Source: Elusimicrobiaceae bacterium (GTDB lineage Bacteria > Elusimicrobiota > Elusimicrobia > Elusimicrobiales > Elusimicrobiaceae). From it: a stretch of DNA of 64,000 nt. Location of the stretch: assembly GCA_017618215.1 (NCBI GenBank), contig JAFZUQ010000007.1:62001-126000 (forward strand), read 5' to 3'. A model generated the notes under the pieces. The model made no database searches, was not told the origin of the DNA, and worked only from the letters and a program-made list of their open reading frames with translations. Both the position numbers and the translations under genes were made by a program. This document shows, piece by piece, positions 50,327 to 60,735 of this stretch (the stretch's first letter is position 1; every line of letters starts with the position of its first letter).

Positions 50327-52165
50327 TTAGTTAGCGTTATTTTTGGAATCAGATTTTTCTTTTGATTCTTGTTTTGATTTTTCCTTTAATTCCTTACCGC
50401 TTTTTGCCCCGTGTGAAATTAGAAATTGTTTCATTTCGTCCGAGCGTGCACAATCTAAAGCAGTATATCCGTAGTCATCTTGCATATTAATATCAAAACC
50501 GTGTTCTAATAAAAATAATACCATTTCTTTGTCACCTTTCCAGGCATAATCACATAGTGCACGGCTACTTTTTGCACCGTGTAAAACTAAAAATTGTTTC
50601 ATATCATTTGTTTTATCATTTATTAAATGATCAAAAGCTGTAAAACCATACTTATCTTTTAGATTAATATCAAAGCCATGTTTCAGTAAAAATTCTATCA
50701 TTTCTTTATTACCTTTGGCAGCATAATAACGTATTGCATAATCACTTTTTGCACCCAATTTAACAAGTATTTTTACTAAACCGATAGAGTAGGAATGGTA
50801 TTCATCTTGATCTATAACTTCTTCAAGCGCATTAGGTCTTGGATGTTCTCCTTCATATTTCATATTAATATCCGCACCGTATTTGATCATCATTTTCAAT
50901 ATTTGTTCTCTTTTCTTTAAAGGGCAATTATCCTGAGGCAAAGCCGCCAGGGCTATCATAGGAATACCGTTTAAAAACACATTGACTTCTGCTTTATTCT
51001 TCAATAAAATTTCAATAGCTTTCTTGTTGCATAATAAGCAAGGACCTTCCAATATGGGGATACTATCAAACTCTGGATGATGATTAAACTTTGTATTAAC
51101 ATCTGCACCTTTTTTAATTAGGTATTCCATAACTTTTGTGTGATTCCTTTGAGCGGCGAAATAAAGAGGGTTAGCGCCTAAAAATTTAGCATTAACATCT
51201 GCACCGTTATTTACCAAAAATTTAACCATTTTAAAATTTCCTCTTATTGCGGCATGATGGAGAGGAGTTACTTTATCAGTTTCATTTAAATTTTGTAATG
51301 AAAAATAATTAATACTATCAGCAAATGCACCTTCATCTTTATTTACTACATTTACATCTACGCCTTTGCTGATTAATAATTTGGCAACCTCAACTTCATT
51401 ATAGTATGCTGCATCATAAAGCAGCATTGCAAGTTCTTCATCAGAATAATTTTCTTTATTAATAAATTCTTTTGCTAATTTTGTTTTACCTGCTGCTATT
51501 GCTTCACGAGCATTATTTATTTTTGCACCTTTCGAAACAAGATACTTAGCTTTTTTTCTATCTCTTAATTTAACAATTAAAGATGTATTATTTTTATCTA
51601 CGGAATTAACATCTGCACCCTTGTCAATTAAATATTCGGCTATATTTTTTGTTTTTGCAAAGAATAAAGGTGTGTTTCCTTTATCATTTTGCGCGTTAAC
51701 ATTTGCTCCTTTTTCAACTATATATTTTATTATGTCTAAACTACTTTTTGTGTTTAAATTATTTTTTGACCAAAATAGAAAATTACTTTTAGACCAAACT
51801 AGATAGTGAAGCGGTGAATTACCTTTGATACACTTTGCATTTATATTTGCCCCGTTATCAATTAAAAGTTTTACTATATCGTCGTTACGTACATAGTGTG
51901 TTGCAATACAAAGTGCTGTTGTTTTATTATTAACTAATTCGTTTACGTCTGCTCCGTCTTTTATCAAAGTTTCTATTTGTTTGAGGTCTTTTTTAAATAT
52001 TGCAATAGCTAAAGGATTATTTATACAGTTGTTTGGTCTATCAAAATAATAACAAATATTATTACTACCAAAAGATTTATGGATTACATAGCCACCGGAT
52101 ATATGATTCGCCTGCAGCACGCCGCAGGTTAGAAGGCATAAAAATATAAATAATAATTTTTTCAT
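50327..52165 (-). CDS. Exported ankyrin-repeat protein
   Basis: A 612-aa protein with a signal peptide (MKKLLFIFLCLLTCGVLQA) and about fourteen ankyrin-type repeats, each showing a GADVN- or GFDIN-like turn and a TPLHHAA-like or TALDCA-like helix start. The last two repeats are close copies of each other. A Lys/Ser/Glu-rich tail (KEKSKQESKEKS) ends it. No enzymatic domain is attached. Ankyrin repeats mediate protein binding; export points to the periplasm or outside the cell. Role (stress protection, host contact or other) is not shown by context. Confidence 0.9.
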   Translation of the reverse strand: MKKLLFIFLCLLTCGVLQANHISGGYVIHKSFGSNNICYYFDRPNNCINNPLAIAIFKKDLKQIETLIKDGADVNELVNNKTTALCIATHYVRNDDIVKLLIDNGANINAKCIKGNSPLHYLVWSKSNFLFWSKNNLNTKSSLDIIKYIVEKGANVNAQNDKGNTPLFFAKTKNIAEYLIDKGADVNSVDKNNTSLIVKLRDRKKAKYLVSKGAKINNAREAIAAGKTKLAKEFINKENYSDEELAMLLYDAAYYNEVEVAKLLISKGVDVNVVNKDEGAFADSINYFSLQNLNETDKVTPLHHAAIRGNFKMVKFLVNNGADVNAKFLGANPLYFAAQRNHTKVMEYLIKKGADVNTKFNHHPEFDSIPILEGPCLLCNKKAIEILLKNKAEVNVFLNGIPMIALAALPQDNCPLKKREQILKMMIKYGADINMKYEGEHPRPNALEEVIDQDEYHSYSIGLVKILVKLGAKSDYAIRYYAAKGNKEMIEFLLKHGFDINLKDKYGFTAFDHLINDKTNDMKQFLVLHGAKSSRALCDYAWKGDKEMVLFLLEHGFDINMQDDYGYTALDCARSDEMKQFLISHGAKSGKELKEKSKQESKEKSDSKNNAN

Positions 52166-52321: not shown

Positions 52322-52867
52322 ATGAAAGAGATAAAAGAGCAAGAAATAATTAAAGAAGTTAAGAGTGGAAATGTTGAAGCTTTCGGGTTGCTTGTAGAAC
52401 AATATAAAGAAAGTTTATATTCCTTTATATTTTACAGTGTTAAAAACGAGGCAGCCGCGCAAGATATTTACCAAGATACTTTGGTGAAGGCTTTAACAAA
52501 ACTTAAAAATTATCGCGAAGAAGGCAATTTTAAAGCATGGCTCTTTACAGTAGCAAGGAATAATATAACGGATTATTTCCGTGCCGGTAGTAAATTAGCA
52601 AGTTTGCCGGAAGACGAAAGCGCGGATATTTTCCCTTCTAAAGAAAACACGGAAAAGCAGGTTATGGAAAAAATTTCTTTAGATAATATCCTTGCAAAAA
52701 TTGAAGAGTTACCTGAGAAAGATAAAGAAATTATTTTGCTTAGACAATATTTAAGTTTTAAAGAAATTGCAGAAGTTTTAAATTGCCCGATAGGTACAGC
52801 ATTGGCGCGGTTAAACAGGGCAATTAAAAAATTACAGTCAAGCTTGGGGGAAGAATATGCCTTGTAA
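52322..52867 (+). CDS. ECF-type RNA polymerase sigma factor
   Basis: A 181-aa sigma70-family factor with only regions 2 and 4. Region 2 includes VEAFGLLVEQYKESLYSFIFY, DIYQDTLVKALTKL and FKAWLFTVARNNITDYFR; region 4 is LPEKDKEIILLRQYLSFKEIAEVLNCPIGTALARLNRA split over a helix-turn-helix. It overlaps the anti-sigma gene by 11 bases, so the two are coupled. A TATAAT-like element (52282-52287) lies 35 bases upstream of the ATG. Probable target includes the secreted protein gene two positions downstream. Confidence 0.93.
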   Translation: MKEIKEQEIIKEVKSGNVEAFGLLVEQYKESLYSFIFYSVKNEAAAQDIYQDTLVKALTKLKNYREEGNFKAWLFTVARNNITDYFRAGSKLASLPEDESADIFPSKENTEKQVMEKISLDNILAKIEELPEKDKEIILLRQYLSFKEIAEVLNCPIGTALARLNRAIKKLQSSLGEEYAL

Positions 52868-53297
52868 AGAAGAAAATAATGCTTTGCTCTATGCTTACGG
52901 CGAACTTGAGGACGCCAAAACAGCAGCTTTTTTGGAGCATTTAAAGACTTGCAAAGAGTGTCAAAATATTGTGCATATGTGCGCTTTAACAACGGCTTCT
53001 TTGGCACCCAAGCAAGCCCCGGCCTTTTCAGTAGCCGAAAGTGTTGTTCAAGAAAAAACAACAAGTTTTAACTTTGGTTTCTTGAAAGGTTTTAAAGGTT
53101 TTAGATGGGTTTATCCGGCCTTTGCAATCGGTGCCTTTGCACTTGCTATTGGCTTTATGGCTTTTGAGTTTACGACTAAAAAGCCATTGGTTAGTATTAA
53201 ACAACCTGTAAGTTTAAATTTAGAAGATGTTAATACTGACCTGACAGATTTGGAAACAGAATTTGATGATCTGTTTTCCTATATGCAAGAATTCTAG
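52857..53297 (+). CDS. Anti-sigma factor (zinc-finger type, membrane-anchored)
   Basis: A 146-aa protein. The N-terminal cytoplasmic part has the anti-sigma zinc motif HLKTCKEC (H-x3-C-x2-C, near residues 29-36), and one membrane helix follows (VYPAFAIGAFALAIGFMAF, near 83-101). The short external part is acidic (DVNTDLTDLETEFDDLF). The layout and overlap with the ECF sigma gene indicate that it holds the sigma factor inactive at the membrane until an envelope signal arrives. Start is at 52857 with GGGGGA upstream. Confidence 0.85.
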   Translation: MPCKEENNALLYAYGELEDAKTAAFLEHLKTCKECQNIVHMCALTTASLAPKQAPAFSVAESVVQEKTTSFNFGFLKGFKGFRWVYPAFAIGAFALAIGFMAFEFTTKKPLVSIKQPVSLNLEDVNTDLTDLETEFDDLFSYMQEF

Positions 53298-53305
53298 GAG
53301 AGATT

Positions 53306-53887
53306 ATGAAAAAGTTTATACTCGCAATAGTTTCCGTGGCTTTTTTAGCCGGTGCCGGAACTTTTGTTAATGCAAAAGATACTCCGCGCGACGATATGAA
53401 AAAGTCTATCGAAGAAATGAACACGCTTGTTGAAAAATACAATAAAGCGTCTGACAAGAAAAAACCGGCTATCGAAAAACAAATTAAAGAAAAAGTTGCC
53501 GCAAATTATGACAAGCATTTAAAACAAATGGAAGAACGTAATGCACAACTTGAAAAACGCGTTGTCGAAATGAAAGCGGAACTTGAAGAAATGAAAACCG
53601 AAGAAGCCAAAACTAAACATGTTGACGAAATAACCAAGAAAATTATTTCCGGCGAAAAGCCCATGTTGTTTAGGCCTCCTTTTAAGGGTGGGGAAAAGTT
53701 TCAAGGCCCTAAAGGGATGAAAGGTTTCGGACATAAAGGTCATTTTAAAGGGCCGAAAGGTGAAAAGGGAGAAAAAGGTTGCCCTTGTGCCAAAGGTGAG
53801 AAAGGCGAAAAAGGGGAAGGCTGCCCTTTTGCTAAAGGCGAGATGTTGCCTCCGCCACCTCCACCGGCTGAAGAAGCATCAAAATAG
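53306..53887 (+). CDS. Secreted coiled-coil protein with collagen-like Gly-rich tail
   Basis: A 193-aa protein with a signal peptide (MKKFILAIVSVAFLAGAGTFVNA). Residues 24-112 form an EKQI/MKAEL-rich coiled coil. Residues about 125-180 hold a Gly-X-Lys rich collagen-like tail (for example GPKGEKGEKG) with two cysteine pairs (GCPCAKG and GCPFAKG), followed by a poly-Pro stretch. The Met/His/Lys-rich coiled coil recalls periplasmic chaperones and metal sensors of the Spy/CpxP type, but no direct match is claimed. It follows the ECF/anti-sigma pair by 8 bases and ends at a strong terminator, so it is probably part of that regulon. Confidence 0.8.
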   Translation: MKKFILAIVSVAFLAGAGTFVNAKDTPRDDMKKSIEEMNTLVEKYNKASDKKKPAIEKQIKEKVAANYDKHLKQMEERNAQLEKRVVEMKAELEEMKTEEAKTKHVDEITKKIISGEKPMLFRPPFKGGEKFQGPKGMKGFGHKGHFKGPKGEKGEKGCPCAKGEKGEKGEGCPFAKGEMLPPPPPPAEEASK

Positions 53888-55952: not shown

Positions 55953-56642
55953 CTATTTTTCTTCTTTGGTTAAGTTTTCAAAAGCTTGCCAAGTCCAGGG
56001 TAATTTCTCTCTGAAAATCTTTTTAATTGCTTCTGCGTAAACGCGTATTTCATATTGTGCATGGTTATCAGCGCGAAGCCTGATAAAATTTAATAATGCA
56101 CGAGCATTAACCGTCCAATAAAATTGTGTATATTGGCTGACGGGAAGTACGCAACGTGCCATTTCACGCGCCACACCTGCCGCCAAGAGTTTTTTGTAAC
56201 TTTCGTAAGAATTTTCAATACTTTTGTTATAAATTTCAAGCAAGGCTTTATTATCAAGATCTTTGCTTACTACGCTGCCTTGGCGGTTTGCAATATCTTG
56301 TACGCGGAATTCGGTCGGAGTATAAAATTCGTCTTTGACTTCTGTGTAACGTGCGCTGATTTCATTATATGAACAAATGCGGTGGCGCATCCATTGGCGT
56401 GCTACAAAAATCGGGCATTTAATGTGGAATTGGAAATAACAATGTTCAAAAGGGGAATGGTGTCCGTTTTCGACGAGATATTTAATTAAAAGTTTATCTT
56501 TTTCTTCTCCTTTACTTACACCACCGAAAGAGACACGTGCAGAACTTACCGCCCTTAAATCAGAGCCCATAAAATCAACAAGTTTGACGAAACCTTTATC
56601 TAAAACTTCAATATAATTTTCTTGGGGGGTATTGTTTTGCAT
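55953..56642 (-). CDS. thyX: Flavin-dependent thymidylate synthase
   Basis: A 229-aa ThyX that methylates dUMP with methylene-THF and FAD. The signature RHRICSYNEISARYT is near residues 86-100 (RHRx7S). SPFEHCYFQFHIKCPIFVARQ and the C-terminal RADNHAQYEIRVYAE are characteristic. It replaces ThyA and links to the folate pool served by FolD. It begins the thyX-glgC-ybeY group; an AAGGAG site precedes the ATG. Confidence 0.96.
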   Translation of the reverse strand: MQNNTPQENYIEVLDKGFVKLVDFMGSDLRAVSSARVSFGGVSKGEEKDKLLIKYLVENGHHSPFEHCYFQFHIKCPIFVARQWMRHRICSYNEISARYTEVKDEFYTPTEFRVQDIANRQGSVVSKDLDNKALLEIYNKSIENSYESYKKLLAAGVAREMARCVLPVSQYTQFYWTVNARALLNFIRLRADNHAQYEIRVYAEAIKKIFREKLPWTWQAFENLTKEEK

Positions 56643-56661
56643 AATGTCTCCTTAAATGATT

Positions 56662-56691
56662 ATTCTAAACATATTGTATATTATTTAGCAA
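56662..56691 (-). promoter_or_regulatory. Putative promoter of thyX-glgC-ybeY
   Basis: Minus strand TTGCTA (56686-56691), 18 bases, TAGAAT (56662-56667), about 20 bases before the thyX ATG. A second possible -10, TACAAT, lies within the spacer. Confidence 0.4.
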
Positions 56692-56719
56692 CTTTTTGCA
56701 CATATTGTGTTTGGGTAGT

Positions 56720-56744
56720 CCTTAATTTGCTAGAATAGTAGTAT
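56720..56744 (+). repeat. 25-bp direct repeat, copy 1 (promoter of radical SAM cassette)
   Basis: CCTTAATTTGC followed by TAGAATAGTAGTAT, identical over 25 bases to 59883-59907. It contains an extended -10 (TGC+TAGAAT, 56729-56736) only 6 bases from the ATG at 56743, so the transcript probably starts at or next to the start codon. Confidence 0.85.
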
Positions 56745-58062
56745 GAAACAGAAGACAAAGGCATTATGCCCTGTTTGCTTAGAAACGGTGGAAGCCGTAA
56801 AAGAGCAAAAAGGCAGTGATGTTTGGTTACATAAAACTTGCCATAAACACGGTTCTTTTTCAGTAAAAGTAGCAAAAGATGCCGCCCGTTTTTTTGATAA
56901 AACTTATGATGTAGAAGGTAAGCCGTTTAAAGCAATTACAAAATTTAAAGAAAATTGCGGCACCGATTGCGGTTGGTGCGAAAAGCATAAACAGCATATC
57001 TGCACCGGGCTTATTGAAGTTACAGAGGCTTGTAATATGTCTTGCCCGATTTGTTATTTCGGCAAAAAAGCACCCAAGCATATTTCTGTAAATGAATTTA
57101 AAGCGCGTCTACAAATTTTATTAACAGTAGAAAATGGGCATTTAGATGTACTTCAAATCAGCGGCGGTGAATGTTTGTTGCACCCTAAGTTTAAAGAAAT
57201 TTTACAGACGGCTTTAAAAGAAGATATAGGCCGCATTTTAATTAATACAAACGGTCTTAAATTGCTTGAAGATAATGATATTTTTGAACTTATCAAAAAG
57301 CATAAAGACCGTGTGGAAATTTATTTACAGTTTGATGGTTTTGACGATGAAGTTTATAAAACTTTACGCGGTAGAACTCTTTTAAAAGAAAAACAAGAAA
57401 TTTTGGAACTTTTAAATAAAGCAGGAATTAAAATCTGTTTGGCTGTTACCGTATATCAAGGTAATTTAAAAGAAATACCTGCTATTTTAAAATTATCTAC
57501 GGAGTTAAAACATATTTCCGGTATAACTTTCCAGCGTTTAACCAAAGTGGGTAGCGCAGCAGGAACAAAAATACCGTCTGTATTACAGGAAGATATTTTG
57601 CTTGCCGCCGCTAATAGCGGTTATATGAAATATAAAGATTTGATACCTTTACCTTGTTCTCATGAAAATTGCACAAGTTTGGGTTTCTTATTTTGCCAAG
57701 GTAAAAAAGTCTATTCTTTAGGCGATTATGTAGATTATTCGAAATGCAAAACGCAAATATCTAACCGTATTGCTTTTGATAAAACTATTTTAGATTATAT
57801 GCAAAAAAATGTTTGCAAATGTTTTGTGGGCCGCGTTTTAGGCAGTAATTTTATGTTAGATAAATTACAGGAATTTGCACAAGGGAAAGGCTCTTGCCAC
57901 AAAGATATGAAAATTGTTCGCATCATCATAAAAAATTTTATGGATGCAGATACTTTTGATTGGCAACGTGCGCAAAAATGTTGTACGGGTGTCAGCGTCG
58001 GAAATGGCAAAGTTGTTCCGTTTTGTATACATAATACTTTAAAAGGGAAAATAAAATGGTAG
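56743..58062 (+). CDS. Radical SAM enzyme of the MJ0619/Tes-like group
   Basis: A 439-aa radical SAM protein. Cys97, Cys101 and Cys104 (ACNMSCPICYF) form the 4Fe-4S site that cleaves SAM. Extra Cys clusters are CPVC (9-12), NCGTDCGWCEKH (72-79), CSHENC near 305, CKC and CCTGVSVGNGKVVPFC near the C-terminus. This Cys-rich frame around the core matches the family that includes archaeal tetraether lipid synthase (MJ0619-type) and bacterial relatives proposed to make membrane-spanning lipids. There is no ribosome site; the start abuts the -10. The small gene downstream overlaps it by 7 bases. Lipid or another hydrophobic substrate is inference from family and from neighbours. Confidence 0.85.
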   Translation: MKQKTKALCPVCLETVEAVKEQKGSDVWLHKTCHKHGSFSVKVAKDAARFFDKTYDVEGKPFKAITKFKENCGTDCGWCEKHKQHICTGLIEVTEACNMSCPICYFGKKAPKHISVNEFKARLQILLTVENGHLDVLQISGGECLLHPKFKEILQTALKEDIGRILINTNGLKLLEDNDIFELIKKHKDRVEIYLQFDGFDDEVYKTLRGRTLLKEKQEILELLNKAGIKICLAVTVYQGNLKEIPAILKLSTELKHISGITFQRLTKVGSAAGTKIPSVLQEDILLAAANSGYMKYKDLIPLPCSHENCTSLGFLFCQGKKVYSLGDYVDYSKCKTQISNRIAFDKTILDYMQKNVCKCFVGRVLGSNFMLDKLQEFAQGKGSCHKDMKIVRIIIKNFMDADTFDWQRAQKCCTGVSVGNGKVVPFCIHNTLKGKIKW

Positions 58063-58274
58063 AAAAAAACAATCAATCTTCAGAACAAGAATATCAGAGG
58101 TTGCAACAAGTATTGTCGCAAGGTCCTGAAAGGGAATATTCAAAACAACCAACAGAAAAAACTTCGACAGGTAAAAAGGTAATTAAAGTCGTTTTAATTA
58201 TACTTGGAGTAGCAATTGCAATACCTTTCCTATTATTTCTTACTTGCTTGGGTATAGTAGCAGTTTCTAATTAA
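58056..58274 (+). CDS. Small single-pass membrane protein in radical SAM cassette
   Basis: A 72-aa protein: a polar, Gln/Glu-rich N-terminus (1-40) and one hydrophobic helix (about 44-66, VIKVVLIILGVAIAIPFLLF). It overlaps the radical SAM gene by 7 bases and is 2 bases from the Lgt-like gene, so it is translated from the same message. Function unknown; it may anchor or recruit the other cassette proteins. Confidence 0.7.
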   Translation: MVEKNNQSSEQEYQRLQQVLSQGPEREYSKQPTEKTSTGKKVIKVVLIILGVAIAIPFLLFLTCLGIVAVSN

Positions 58275-58276
58275 TT

Positions 58277-58912
58277 ATGTTAGCATACGCGATTTGTTCT
58301 ATTGTCGGTTTAATAGCCGGTGCTTTGGTCGCCTTAAAATTAGACATGCCGCGCCCGCCGAAACACGTACAAATGCCTTATTATGTTTGTGCTTTTGTAG
58401 GTGCTATTTTGGGTGCTAAGGTGCCTATTTGGCTGTCTTATGGTTTTACAAATTATATAATTCAGGGCAAAAGTGTTATGGGCGGTATGCTTGGTGCTTT
58501 TTTGGCAATAAATTTGTATAAAATATGTTCCGGGCATAAAGGCGGTTTTGGCGGACGTTTTGTAATTCCTTTGGCTGTTGCTATCGGTTTTGGTAAAATG
58601 GGATGTTATTTAAACGGATGTTGCGGTGGTACTTTAATTTTCCCGGTACAACTTATTGAGAGTCTTTTCCAATTCATAACGGCAATTTGTTTGTATCAAT
58701 TTTACCTTCGTACCAAAAGGGCGGATTTATTATTCCCAATATATTTGCTTGCTTATTTGTGTATGCGTTTTATAATTGAATTTTGGCGAGTGGAACCGCG
58801 TGTTTTGTTTGACTTAACCGCATATCAATATTTAGCTTTGGTATTTATTCCTGTCTGTATTTTAATTATTTGGAGGCGTACCCATGTTAACATGGCTTTT
58901 GCAAGTAAGTAA
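58277..58912 (+). CDS. Lgt-like (prolipoprotein diacylglyceryl transferase family) membrane protein
   Basis: A 211-aa polytopic membrane protein. The stretches GKSVMGGMLGAFLAINLYK, GFGKMGCYLNGCCGGT, FPVQLIESLFQF and CMRFIIEFWRVEP follow the Lgt family pattern in order. It is shorter than housekeeping Lgt (around 260-290 aa). The position of the family Arg in the GRxGCFxNG box reads Lys (GKMGC). Set beside a lipid-type radical SAM enzyme and an ICMT-like protein, a specialised lipid or lipid-linked transfer role is more likely than ordinary lipoprotein processing. Its 3' end overlaps the next gene by 29 bases. Confidence 0.78.
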   Translation: MLAYAICSIVGLIAGALVALKLDMPRPPKHVQMPYYVCAFVGAILGAKVPIWLSYGFTNYIIQGKSVMGGMLGAFLAINLYKICSGHKGGFGGRFVIPLAVAIGFGKMGCYLNGCCGGTLIFPVQLIESLFQFITAICLYQFYLRTKRADLLFPIYLLAYLCMRFIIEFWRVEPRVLFDLTAYQYLALVFIPVCILIIWRRTHVNMAFASK

Positions 58913-59870
58913 AAATTCCCAAAACTCTATGCTTTTTTTAATAGGTATCTGTTTGTTATATATTACGGGTATTGTTCTTTTAGCAGCGGTTGTGTGGAAA
59001 TTTTATCAATATAAAGAAGTTAAACCGGCGCTTGAAAAACAACGCAAACATTTCTTTTCCACTCGGGAAATGTTAATTTTAGTATTAATACTTTTCCCTT
59101 TTTGGATAGGTTCTTTCGGGCAAGTACATTTGCTGGAAATTGCTTATTACTTTTTCTTTAGTATCGGTATTATTTGCGTATTATTTGCAACCGTTTGGCA
59201 TATTTGGGCAAAATTTAATATAGGGCGTTTATGGTCCGACGGTATAGAAATCAAGGAGAAGCACCCCTTGCAAACTACCGGCGCTTATGCTTTGGCAAGG
59301 CATCCGATGTATGCCTCACTTTTACTTTGGTGCTGGGGCGGCAGTTTGATTATGGCAAACGCCATTACATTTTTAGTTGTAAGCCTTGTGTTTTTGCCGT
59401 TAATGGTTTACCGCGCAAAAGCGGAAGAGGCTTGGCTGCTTCAAAAAAACCCTGATTATGCTTTTTACCAAAACAATGTAAAAATGTTAACCGTTACGAT
59501 ATCTGGCGGATGGAGTGTTCTTGTTCGTTTGATATTAGCCTTGGCCCTATGTTATTTTACGGTGGCACATCAAATTACATTGGCCGTACTTGGTGCACTT
59601 GTATTTGTGCATCTTTACTTGGGTTATAGTTTAGTACCGGAAAAGACGGCATTTTCCTACCGTTCCAAATCCGGTATGATGGCGGTATTTGGGCTTTTAG
59701 GGCTTTATGTAAGTCCTGTTTTCTTTTACTTTTTCTATATAATTGTTGCCATGTGTTTGTATGGTTTAAAATGGAATTGCCCTTGTATGTTGGTATATGA
59801 AAAGTACCATGGTTGTCCTTGTTTCGCTTTGCTGAAAAAATGCAGTTTGCGTAAAAAAGCGGACAGATAA
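58884..59870 (+). CDS. ICMT/PEMT-like membrane methyltransferase with Cys-rich tail
   Basis: A 328-aa integral membrane protein. The central part (about 100-210) has the isoprenylcysteine/phospholipid methyltransferase pattern: TTGAYALARHPMYASLLLWCWGG, then AKAEEAWLLQ and YAFYQNNV. Membrane helices flank it, and a C-terminal domain (about 215-328) ends in a Cys-rich segment CPCMLVYEKYHGCPCFALLKKC. That tail is not part of the usual ICMT fold, so this looks like a fusion. A strong GGAGG site lies within the Lgt-like gene and supports the ATG at 58884. It is the last gene of the cassette. Confidence 0.75.
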   Translation: MLTWLLQVSKNSQNSMLFLIGICLLYITGIVLLAAVVWKFYQYKEVKPALEKQRKHFFSTREMLILVLILFPFWIGSFGQVHLLEIAYYFFFSIGIICVLFATVWHIWAKFNIGRLWSDGIEIKEKHPLQTTGAYALARHPMYASLLLWCWGGSLIMANAITFLVVSLVFLPLMVYRAKAEEAWLLQKNPDYAFYQNNVKMLTVTISGGWSVLVRLILALALCYFTVAHQITLAVLGALVFVHLYLGYSLVPEKTAFSYRSKSGMMAVFGLLGLYVSPVFFYFFYIIVAMCLYGLKWNCPCMLVYEKYHGCPCFALLKKCSLRKKADR

Positions 59871-59882
59871 ACACGAAGCAGG

Positions 59883-59907
59883 CCTTAATTTGCTAGAATA
59901 GTAGTAT
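59883..59907 (+). repeat. 25-bp direct repeat, copy 2 (promoter of nadK)
   Basis: Exact second copy of the sequence at 56720-56744. The extended -10 TGC+TAGAAT is at 59892-59899, 8 bases before the nadK ATG. Together the copies bracket the radical SAM cassette. Confidence 0.85.
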
Positions 59908-60735
59908 ATGGAACTTAAGACTATCGCCCTCTTTTTCAATTCAAAGCGTGAAACTTGCAGTAAAGCCGCTAAAGATTTAAAAACAAGTTTGGAAAAAGAG
60001 CATATAAAAACAAAAATACTGCCTTATGATAATTTAAAAATCAATCAAAATTTTGATTTGATTTTTTCTCTCGGCGGCGATGGTTCTTTGCTTAAAATCG
60101 TGCGCAAATCCGCACACCGTAAAATAAAAATACTCGGTTTAAATTTCGGGCATCTTGGGTTTTTAACTTATGATAAAAATGCCGGCATAAAGGCACTTTT
60201 AAAAGCTTTGAAAGCAGATAAATTTTGCCTTCAGGAAAGGGCATTGCTTGACGTGCAAGTTATAAGAAATAAGAAAATTGTTTTTAAAGGTATTGCCTTA
60301 AACGAGTGTACAATAAAATCAAACAAAGCGCGCGCTATACACTTAAATACTTTTTACGAAAAGAGTGAACTTAAAGAATATTTTGCCGACGGTTTAATGC
60401 TTTGCACACCGACAGGCTCAACAGCCTATAATTTAGCTGCCGGCGGCCCGATTTTAGAACCTTCTTTGGAAGCTTTTACCTTAACACCTATTTGCCCGCA
60501 TACTTTGGCGCAGCGGCCTTTAGTTTTAAAATTAAAATCTCCGCTTTTTATTGACGGGCAGGAAGAATCACACCTTTGTTTAGACGGGCAGGTATTTTTT
60601 AAATTGTCTAAAAAAGATAGGGTGCAAATAAAAAGAAGTCCATTAAATGCGAAAATAATTTTTGCTGAAGATTATGACTTTTTTAAACTCTTAACACAAA
60701 AACTTACTTGGGGCGGGAACTGTAAAAATGCTTAA
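59908..60735 (+). CDS. nadK: NAD kinase
   Basis: A 275-aa kinase that makes NADP from NAD. SLGGDGSLLKIVR carries the GGDG motif near residue 56; GLNFGHLGFLTYD and TPTGSTAYNLAAGGPILEP follow as in the family. The start has no ribosome site and directly follows the repeated promoter, so it may be leaderless. It overlaps recN by 8 bases, a frequent gene pairing. Confidence 0.95.
   Translation: MELKTIALFFNSKRETCSKAAKDLKTSLEKEHIKTKILPYDNLKINQNFDLIFSLGGDGSLLKIVRKSAHRKIKILGLNFGHLGFLTYDKNAGIKALLKALKADKFCLQERALLDVQVIRNKKIVFKGIALNECTIKSNKARAIHLNTFYEKSELKEYFADGLMLCTPTGSTAYNLAAGGPILEPSLEAFTLTPICPHTLAQRPLVLKLKSPLFIDGQEESHLCLDGQVFFKLSKKDRVQIKRSPLNAKIIFAEDYDFFKLLTQKLTWGGNCKNA

Follow-up and report, generated by a model that had tools for sequence, protein, structure and literature searches.

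The window analysed in this work is a 64,000-nucleotide stretch of an Elusimicrobiaceae bacterium genome (contig JAFZUQ010000007.1, positions 62,001 to 126,000). It harbours a cassette of four genes encoding a radical S-adenosylmethionine (SAM) protein (rSAM in this work), a small membrane protein, a paralogue of the lipoprotein-type transferase Lgt and an ICMT-like methyltransferase. The genes and their main features, in window positions, are the following.

56743..58062, plus strand: rSAM, 439 aa, Tes fold; open reading frame (ORF), Pfam PF04055 and PF23545 (zinc ribbon)
58056..58274, plus strand: one-helix membrane protein, 72 aa, proposed lipid acceptor; ORF
58245..58247, plus strand: Cys64 codon, context IPFLLFLTC/LGIVAVSN, proposed lipidation site; invariant, context common to other phyla
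58277..58912, plus strand: Lgt paralogue, 211 aa; PF01790, 64.8 bits against a cut-off of 24.9; aligns to Lgt (PDB 5azb)
58466..58486, plus strand: GKSVMGG loop; 14 paralogues aligned with 13 other Lgts
58592..58630, plus strand: GKMGCYLNGCCGG, counterpart of the Lgt signature; Lys for Arg; C110, C115 and C116 invariant (32 rows)
58884..59870, plus strand: ICMT/PEMT-like membrane methyltransferase, 328 aa, extra C-terminal membrane domain; PF04140, 49.1 bits against 24
59778..59822, plus strand: C-terminal CPC...CPC motif, residues 299-313; four Cys invariant

Organisation and recurrence of the cassette

The four ORFs adjoin on the plus strand in the order rSAM, small membrane protein, Lgt paralogue and ICMT-like protein, and the junctions between consecutive ORFs are an overlap of 7 bases, a gap of 2 and an overlap of 29. 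An earlier sequence-only reading of this DNA had described the same order and junctions; all its coordinates agree with the ORF listing, and Pfam and NCBIfam back its radical SAM, LGT and ICMT/PEMT family labels.

Recurrence was analysed in a named-genome scan, using an alignment of 29 rSAM proteins as query (the window protein and 28 of 259 matches). The best 79 loci were kept from 455 stretches encoding rSAM relatives, which makes 80 loci with the window. An Lgt homologue was present in 66 of the 80, usually directly downstream of rSAM (3.5 kb off in L063), and an ICMT homologue in 27. The sequence ends less than 700 bases downstream of rSAM in 8 of the 14 Lgt-less loci. The carriers were Elusimicrobiota, Alphaproteobacteria (including Rhizomicrobium electricum), Kiritimatiellota, many Planctomycetota and a Polyangia bin; named strains were Blastopirellula marina DSM 3645 (L052), Lacipirellula limnantheis I41 (L080) and Rhizomicrobium electricum DSM 21034 (L021).

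Of the 118 genomes sampled from the Blastopirellula class, 32 encode rSAM (E <= 1e-40). Among 30 loci of this class, the first flanks contained an Lgt in 23; reading three more to 3.5 kb raised this to 26. Twenty loci first labelled as Lgt-less were read further (L149 among them had a cut-off Lgt, and L094 an ICMT match); an Lgt was found in 13, located downstream in five and upstream, overlapping or abutting rSAM, in eight. These eight upstream Lgts are of a divergent type (104-141 bits). Among 247 Elusimicrobiota genomes, rSAM was present in 13 and the Lgt paralogue in 14, namely the same 13 and G165; the G165 copy has an in-frame stop, and no rSAM was detected in that genome at E <= 1e-30. 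The rSAM and Lgt paralogue clades are co-inherited.

The recurring core is rSAM, the Lgt paralogue and the small Cys-tipped membrane protein. A chance neighbourhood was rejected, as the same genes are found together in distant phyla. The sequence-only reading had been made dependent on the genes being conserved together, and the first three are.

The small Cys-tipped membrane proteins

The 72-aa protein matched no Pfam or NCBIfam family above cut-off. Cys64 was invariant in the 8 aligned Elusimicrobiota proteins, including that of the window (8/8), with a mean column identity of 56%. The loci harbour one to several small membrane proteins, located between rSAM and Lgt or downstream, and upstream of rSAM in most planctomycete loci. 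They have little in common besides a Cys within or ending a hydrophobic helix (AVLFGTC or LLIAGC in alphaproteobacteria, IIFFIVC or AFFVTC in planctomycetes, LLNAAC in deeper loci). The one-helix membrane protein of the sequence-only reading is real and was underrated there; its Cys64 is the feature common across phyla.

ORFs with the hydropathy signature of these proteins were present in 60 of 65 loci having rSAM and Lgt (up to 1.5 kb upstream, up to 0.8 kb downstream or between the cassette genes). Their density was 0.579 per kb at the cassettes, compared to 0.013 in distant flanks and 0.006 on the opposite strand. Among 66 dereplicated contexts, the protein ended within 14 residues of the Cys in 20, and a zinc-ribbon-like CxxC pair preceded the helix in 23. 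Lys/Arg residues were more abundant before the helix than after it in 49 contexts, fewer in 10 and equal in 7; this excess suggests that the Cys faces outward. Tandem copies differing in their N-terminal parts were observed in L037, L045 and L217 (three each) and in L211 (about four).

Ten proteins (nine small, one PilS-like) were scanned for families: DUF7577 was barely over its cut-off in L052, SHOCT barely under it in L009, and weak zinc-ribbon matches were obtained in L037. A membrane protein of about 230 aa is encoded near the peptides in 14 loci (e.g. L035:6748-7386 and L061:6729-7424), and its L035 copy matches the PilS-like PF25323, barely under cut-off.

The Lgt paralogue

The Lgt paralogue belongs to the Lgt family by profile and lies below the equivalog cut-offs (38.8 vs 334 bits for NF000778, 32.5 vs 118.9 for TIGR00544). 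R164, E168 and R171 of the RFxxEFxR region, typical of Lgt, were invariant in 32/32 paralogue rows; together with invariant Tyr160 and near-invariant Gly118 they align with Lgt 5azb. The paralogue belongs to a clade of its own. In the Lgt tree, 99 Lgts from rSAM loci fall on one side of a branch (SH-aLRT 99) and 13 others on the opposite side; the latter are encoded by the window's genome and by nine carriers, and 87 'linked' rows were labelled by a score above 200 bits. The Lgt and rSAM trees are both quick searches with SH-aLRT support only and with long-branch warnings.

The paralogue loop reads G[KR][ST] followed by Met, Leu, Ile or Thr (Phe in L030), and the aligned position is His, Tyr, Trp or Phe in 12 of the 13 other Lgts (the 13th is misaligned). 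The signature Arg, presumably R143 of E. coli Lgt, is replaced by Lys107 (GKMGC) in the window paralogue. The sequence-only reading had noted this Lys, which is real but limited to the ICMT-bearing group without its outermost members L030 (Ser) and L033 (Arg); planctomycete paralogues keep the Arg. A stronger, housekeeping-type Lgt is encoded elsewhere in the genome (G000:C6:179747-180466, L081). It has GRIGCFLAGCCYG in place of the GNFINGE signature of 5azb, as do several other Lgts of these phyla. The GCC motif was rejected as a mark of the paralogue, being also present in housekeeping Lgts, including that of this genome.

The ICMT-like methyltransferase

The model of the ICMT-like protein matches Ma-ICMT (PDB 4a2n) with a TM-score of 0.77 by target, and the Pfam ICMT score was above cut-off; NF040696 was not reached (66.7 bits, cut-off 160). 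The likeness comprises the core, at profile positions ~43-205, and RHPMY with the conserved RAxxEE region. The window protein differs in its extra C-terminal membrane domain with the CPC...CPC tail, for which Foldseek gave no solved match, a match elsewhere thereby not being excluded. C299, C301, C311 and C313 were invariant in 23/23 aligned ICMT-like homologues, which bears out the Cys-rich tail of the earlier description; L033 lies outside this alignment and has no tail.

The radical SAM protein

rSAM is present in one copy in this genome, and its predicted structure matches the fold of Tes (MJ0619; PDB 7tol, 7tom; NF045702) over the full length. The alignment points to rubredoxin-like ligands (C9, C12, C33, H36), N-terminal cluster cysteines (C72, C76, C79), radical SAM cluster cysteines (C97, C101, C104) and C-terminal cysteines (C305, C310, C413, C414, C428). 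The first three sites constitute the Tes motif set given in PMC9433317 (rubredoxin ligands, N-terminal cluster and CX3CX2C), and the rubredoxin CxxC, C and H, the N-terminal cluster and CX3CX2C were all found by 7tol alignment and residue counts. In the ICMT-bearing clade, C310, C413 and C428 align with the C-terminal cysteines of Tes. By contrast, rSAM has an invariant pair, C305 and C414, and 7tol and two Tes rows never have both.

The score against the Tes family NF045702 was 175.7 bits, under its cut-off of 450. The best NCBIfam match, over the whole length, was TrsS (NF045646, 243.4 bits); identity with TrsS was rejected, since the cut-off is 490 bits and 0/247 sampled genomes of the phylum pass it. 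A viperin-type defence protein was also rejected, only the radical SAM core being matched.

Three groups are distinguished in the rSAM tree (134 rows): an ICMT-bearing one with 30 rows (SH-aLRT 98), a planctomycete one with 68 (SH-aLRT 100) and a mixed one with 17 (SH-aLRT 92). Deep relatives fall outside these groups, among them L181 and L182, whose scores exceed the Tes cut-off; no Lgt match of at least 150 columns was found in the flanks of any of them. rSAM adjoins an Lgt paralogue, while L181 and L182 show none in flanks of ~1.4 kb. The locus labels of this tree used a 150-bit Lgt threshold, and 'none' labels are too many because it hid the weaker upstream type (104-141 bits). rSAM did not group with clearly non-lipid enzymes; such a grouping would have refuted the sequence-only reading. 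Tandem Tes-like rSAM genes with no Lgt match nearby were observed at L186, L205, L206 and L210, loci that belong to two of the genomes sampled from planctomycetes (G440 and G420).

Lys397 aligns with Tes Met439, and this position is Lys in 30/30 rows of the ICMT-bearing group and Thr in 65/68 planctomycete rows; Val417 is at the position of Tes Tyr459 (7tol alignment, numbering inferred). The sequence-only assignment to the MJ0619/Tes type consequently holds for the full-length fold, but not for the family score or Met439. Labile Met439 and Tyr459 are reported in PMC9433317 to be completely conserved in 1000 archaeal homologues, and the M439A variant of Tes keeps its activity there, so that the loss of Met439 does not exclude Tes chemistry. 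Position 428 is Asp and not the cluster-aligned Cys in 16/17 rows of the mixed group (mostly Lgt-linked). As this sister group has lost residues aligned to the ligands of the C-terminal cluster, with which Tes performs the sp3-sp3 C-C coupling of lipid tails, the same chemistry cannot be assumed. Judged by these residues, the mixed group is a natural test of the function of the C-terminal cluster. In its loci L219, L220 and L222-L227 the Lgt is upstream of rSAM, and the cluster-aligned residues are mostly lost group-wide.

These data bear on the possibility of a membrane-spanning-lipid operon, in which rSAM would couple free phospholipid tails as Tes does, the Lgt- and ICMT-like enzymes would dress the head groups and the small protein would only hold the complex. 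The Tes fold, most Tes metal ligands and the role of bacterial Tes homologues as makers of branched glycerol dialkyl glycerol tetraethers, proposed in PMC8941075, agree with it. However, the score (176 bits, cut-off 450) and the changes at Met439 and position 428 speak against it, and a dedicated lipoprotein-type transferase and the conserved Cys of the small protein would be left without explanation; we consider this operon unlikely. More unlikely still is a system like those of ribosomally synthesised and post-translationally modified peptides, where rSAM would modify the peptide, for example by cross-linking it at the Cys or close by, and the role of the Lgt paralogue would be limited to anchoring it: peptide-maturase families match the radical SAM core only, far under their cut-offs, the full-length matches are TrsS and Tes, and what is conserved in the peptide is a membrane helix.

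Proposed function

Lgt transfers diacylglyceryl to the lipobox cysteine of prolipoproteins, forming a thioether at the outer face of the membrane. A dedicated Lgt clade travelling with Cys-tipped proteins is most simply explained by lipid transfer to that Cys. Since the first three genes recur in distant phyla, we predict that their products lipidate the small protein and subsequently remodel the attached lipid; this would constitute a novel type of protein modification. We tentatively propose, at somewhat short of an even chance, that the cassette forms a conserved module: the Lgt paralogue would lipidate the Cys of the small protein, and rSAM would then act on the lipid chain or on nearby peptide. 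The sequence-only reading had suggested an unusual membrane lipid or a lipid-linked molecule. Clustering, the Tes-type fold and the lipid-enzyme partners sustain this suggestion, but a protein-Cys lipid fits better than a free membrane lipid, as the recurring core comprises rSAM, Lgt and the Cys-tipped protein and ICMT only occurs in 27/80 loci.

In such a module, the small protein would have its N-terminus inside and its C-terminus outside, with Cys64 at the outer face, where Lgt works. The Lgt paralogue would then take a phospholipid donor and make a thioether at Cys64; by analogy with Lgt, and given the module, we rate this step as evenly balanced. rSAM would remove a hydrogen from the bound lipid at an unactivated carbon and form a new bond there, a step that is more doubtful even if the module is real. 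In the ICMT-bearing clade, the ICMT-like enzyme might methylate the product, which we regard as somewhat unlikely on the same premise. An extended version, in which this second, dedicated Lgt lipidates peptide-tip cysteines and rSAM joins the lipid chain tail-to-tail with a second one, or links it onto the peptide, would give membrane-spanning, lipid-stapled peptides with an ICMT-type cap in one clade, the capping being a bacterial counterpart of CAAX processing; taken together, this version is improbable.

Several observations weigh against the module. Seven of the 20 extended loci remained without Lgt (the L216 contig ends on that side). The GxxxH/Y loop of the paralogue has lost its His/aromatic residue, and the clade of the window also lacks the signature Arg. 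T, I or V frequently precedes the Cys, in contrast to a strict lipobox. Five of the 65 cassettes had no separate signature ORF (L008, fused to rSAM, L046, L047, L060 and L076), and the signature densities come from a signature worded after the cassette proteins had been seen, from related loci and from ORFs without gene calling. A stricter count, made first with a longest-ORF filter in 24 loci and keeping few ORFs, gave 11/17 near vs 2/4 far (p=0.62). rSAM and ICMT chemistry is expected to be cytoplasmic, and that of Lgt on the outer side.

Natural rSAM::peptide fusions (L008, P0019, also L090, P0021 and P0102) suit an anchor role too. The Cys-tipped protein could be a lipid carrier or anchor of rSAM: the Lgt paralogue would load the Cys, the tethered rSAM would process the lipid, and the lipid would be passed on. 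The 7-base overlap of the two genes agrees with this role, but several loci have 2-4 tandem copies whose N-terminal parts differ, which is easier to reconcile with products than with a single carrier, and we give the carrier little credence.

If lipidation followed by remodelling is correct, lipoproteins are made by a second pathway in bacteria of several phyla, with a dedicated Lgt and dedicated substrates, and this pathway is coupled to radical chemistry similar to that of archaeal membrane lipids. Bacterial Tes relatives, a large clade, would thereby gain a function, and a bacterial Tes homologue would not always be a sign of membrane-spanning lipids; PMC9433317 notes Tes relatives in bacteria not known for biphytanyl chains. 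Searches of the open-licence PubMed Central literature gave no paper that links an Lgt with a radical SAM gene as parts of the same system.

Flanking repeats and insertion site

The cassette lies between an ORF on the minus strand (55953-56642), which we take to be thyX, and an ORF at 59908-60735, presumably nadK (NAD kinase), both named by recognition of their sequences. It is flanked by a direct repeat.

56717..56744, plus strand: direct repeat, left copy, 28 nt, promoter-like; 27/28 identical to the right copy
59880..59907, plus strand: direct repeat, right copy, native nadK promoter region; repeat search and empty-site comparison

The last two bases of the left copy open the rSAM start codon. 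The 24-nt repeat core has only these two copies genome-wide within 3 mismatches. In L099, L100 and L102, of the same genus, thyX and nadK have no cassette between them and there is one recognisable repeat copy before nadK (2, 5 and 4 mismatches in 24, respectively). In L003 the cassette occupies the same site and both repeat copies are present, one with a single mismatch, whereas in G251 the thyX-nadK site is empty and rSAM is located on another contig. By this site comparison, the cassette appears as an insertion between duplicated copies of the nadK promoter.

The cassette was present in 4/18 genomes of the genus, several assemblies being incomplete (G250, 76%). This patchy presence and the flanking repeats would suit an anti-phage or stress accessory module with no lipid-building role. 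PADLOC, however, matched only the viperin radical SAM core (residues 92-244; the neighbours were not screened for defence genes), and the frequency of rSAM in the Blastopirellula class also argues against such a module, which we judge extremely unlikely.

Other features of the window

No structured RNA was matched at the gathering threshold in 56600-60000. By recognition, consecutive genes at 52322-53887 encode a sigma factor of the ECF type, a probable anti-sigma factor and a protein of 193 aa that looks secreted and carries collagen-like KGEKGEKG and CPC stretches. On the minus strand, 50327-52165 encodes a 612-aa protein recognised by a signal-like N-terminus and many ankyrin-like repeats.

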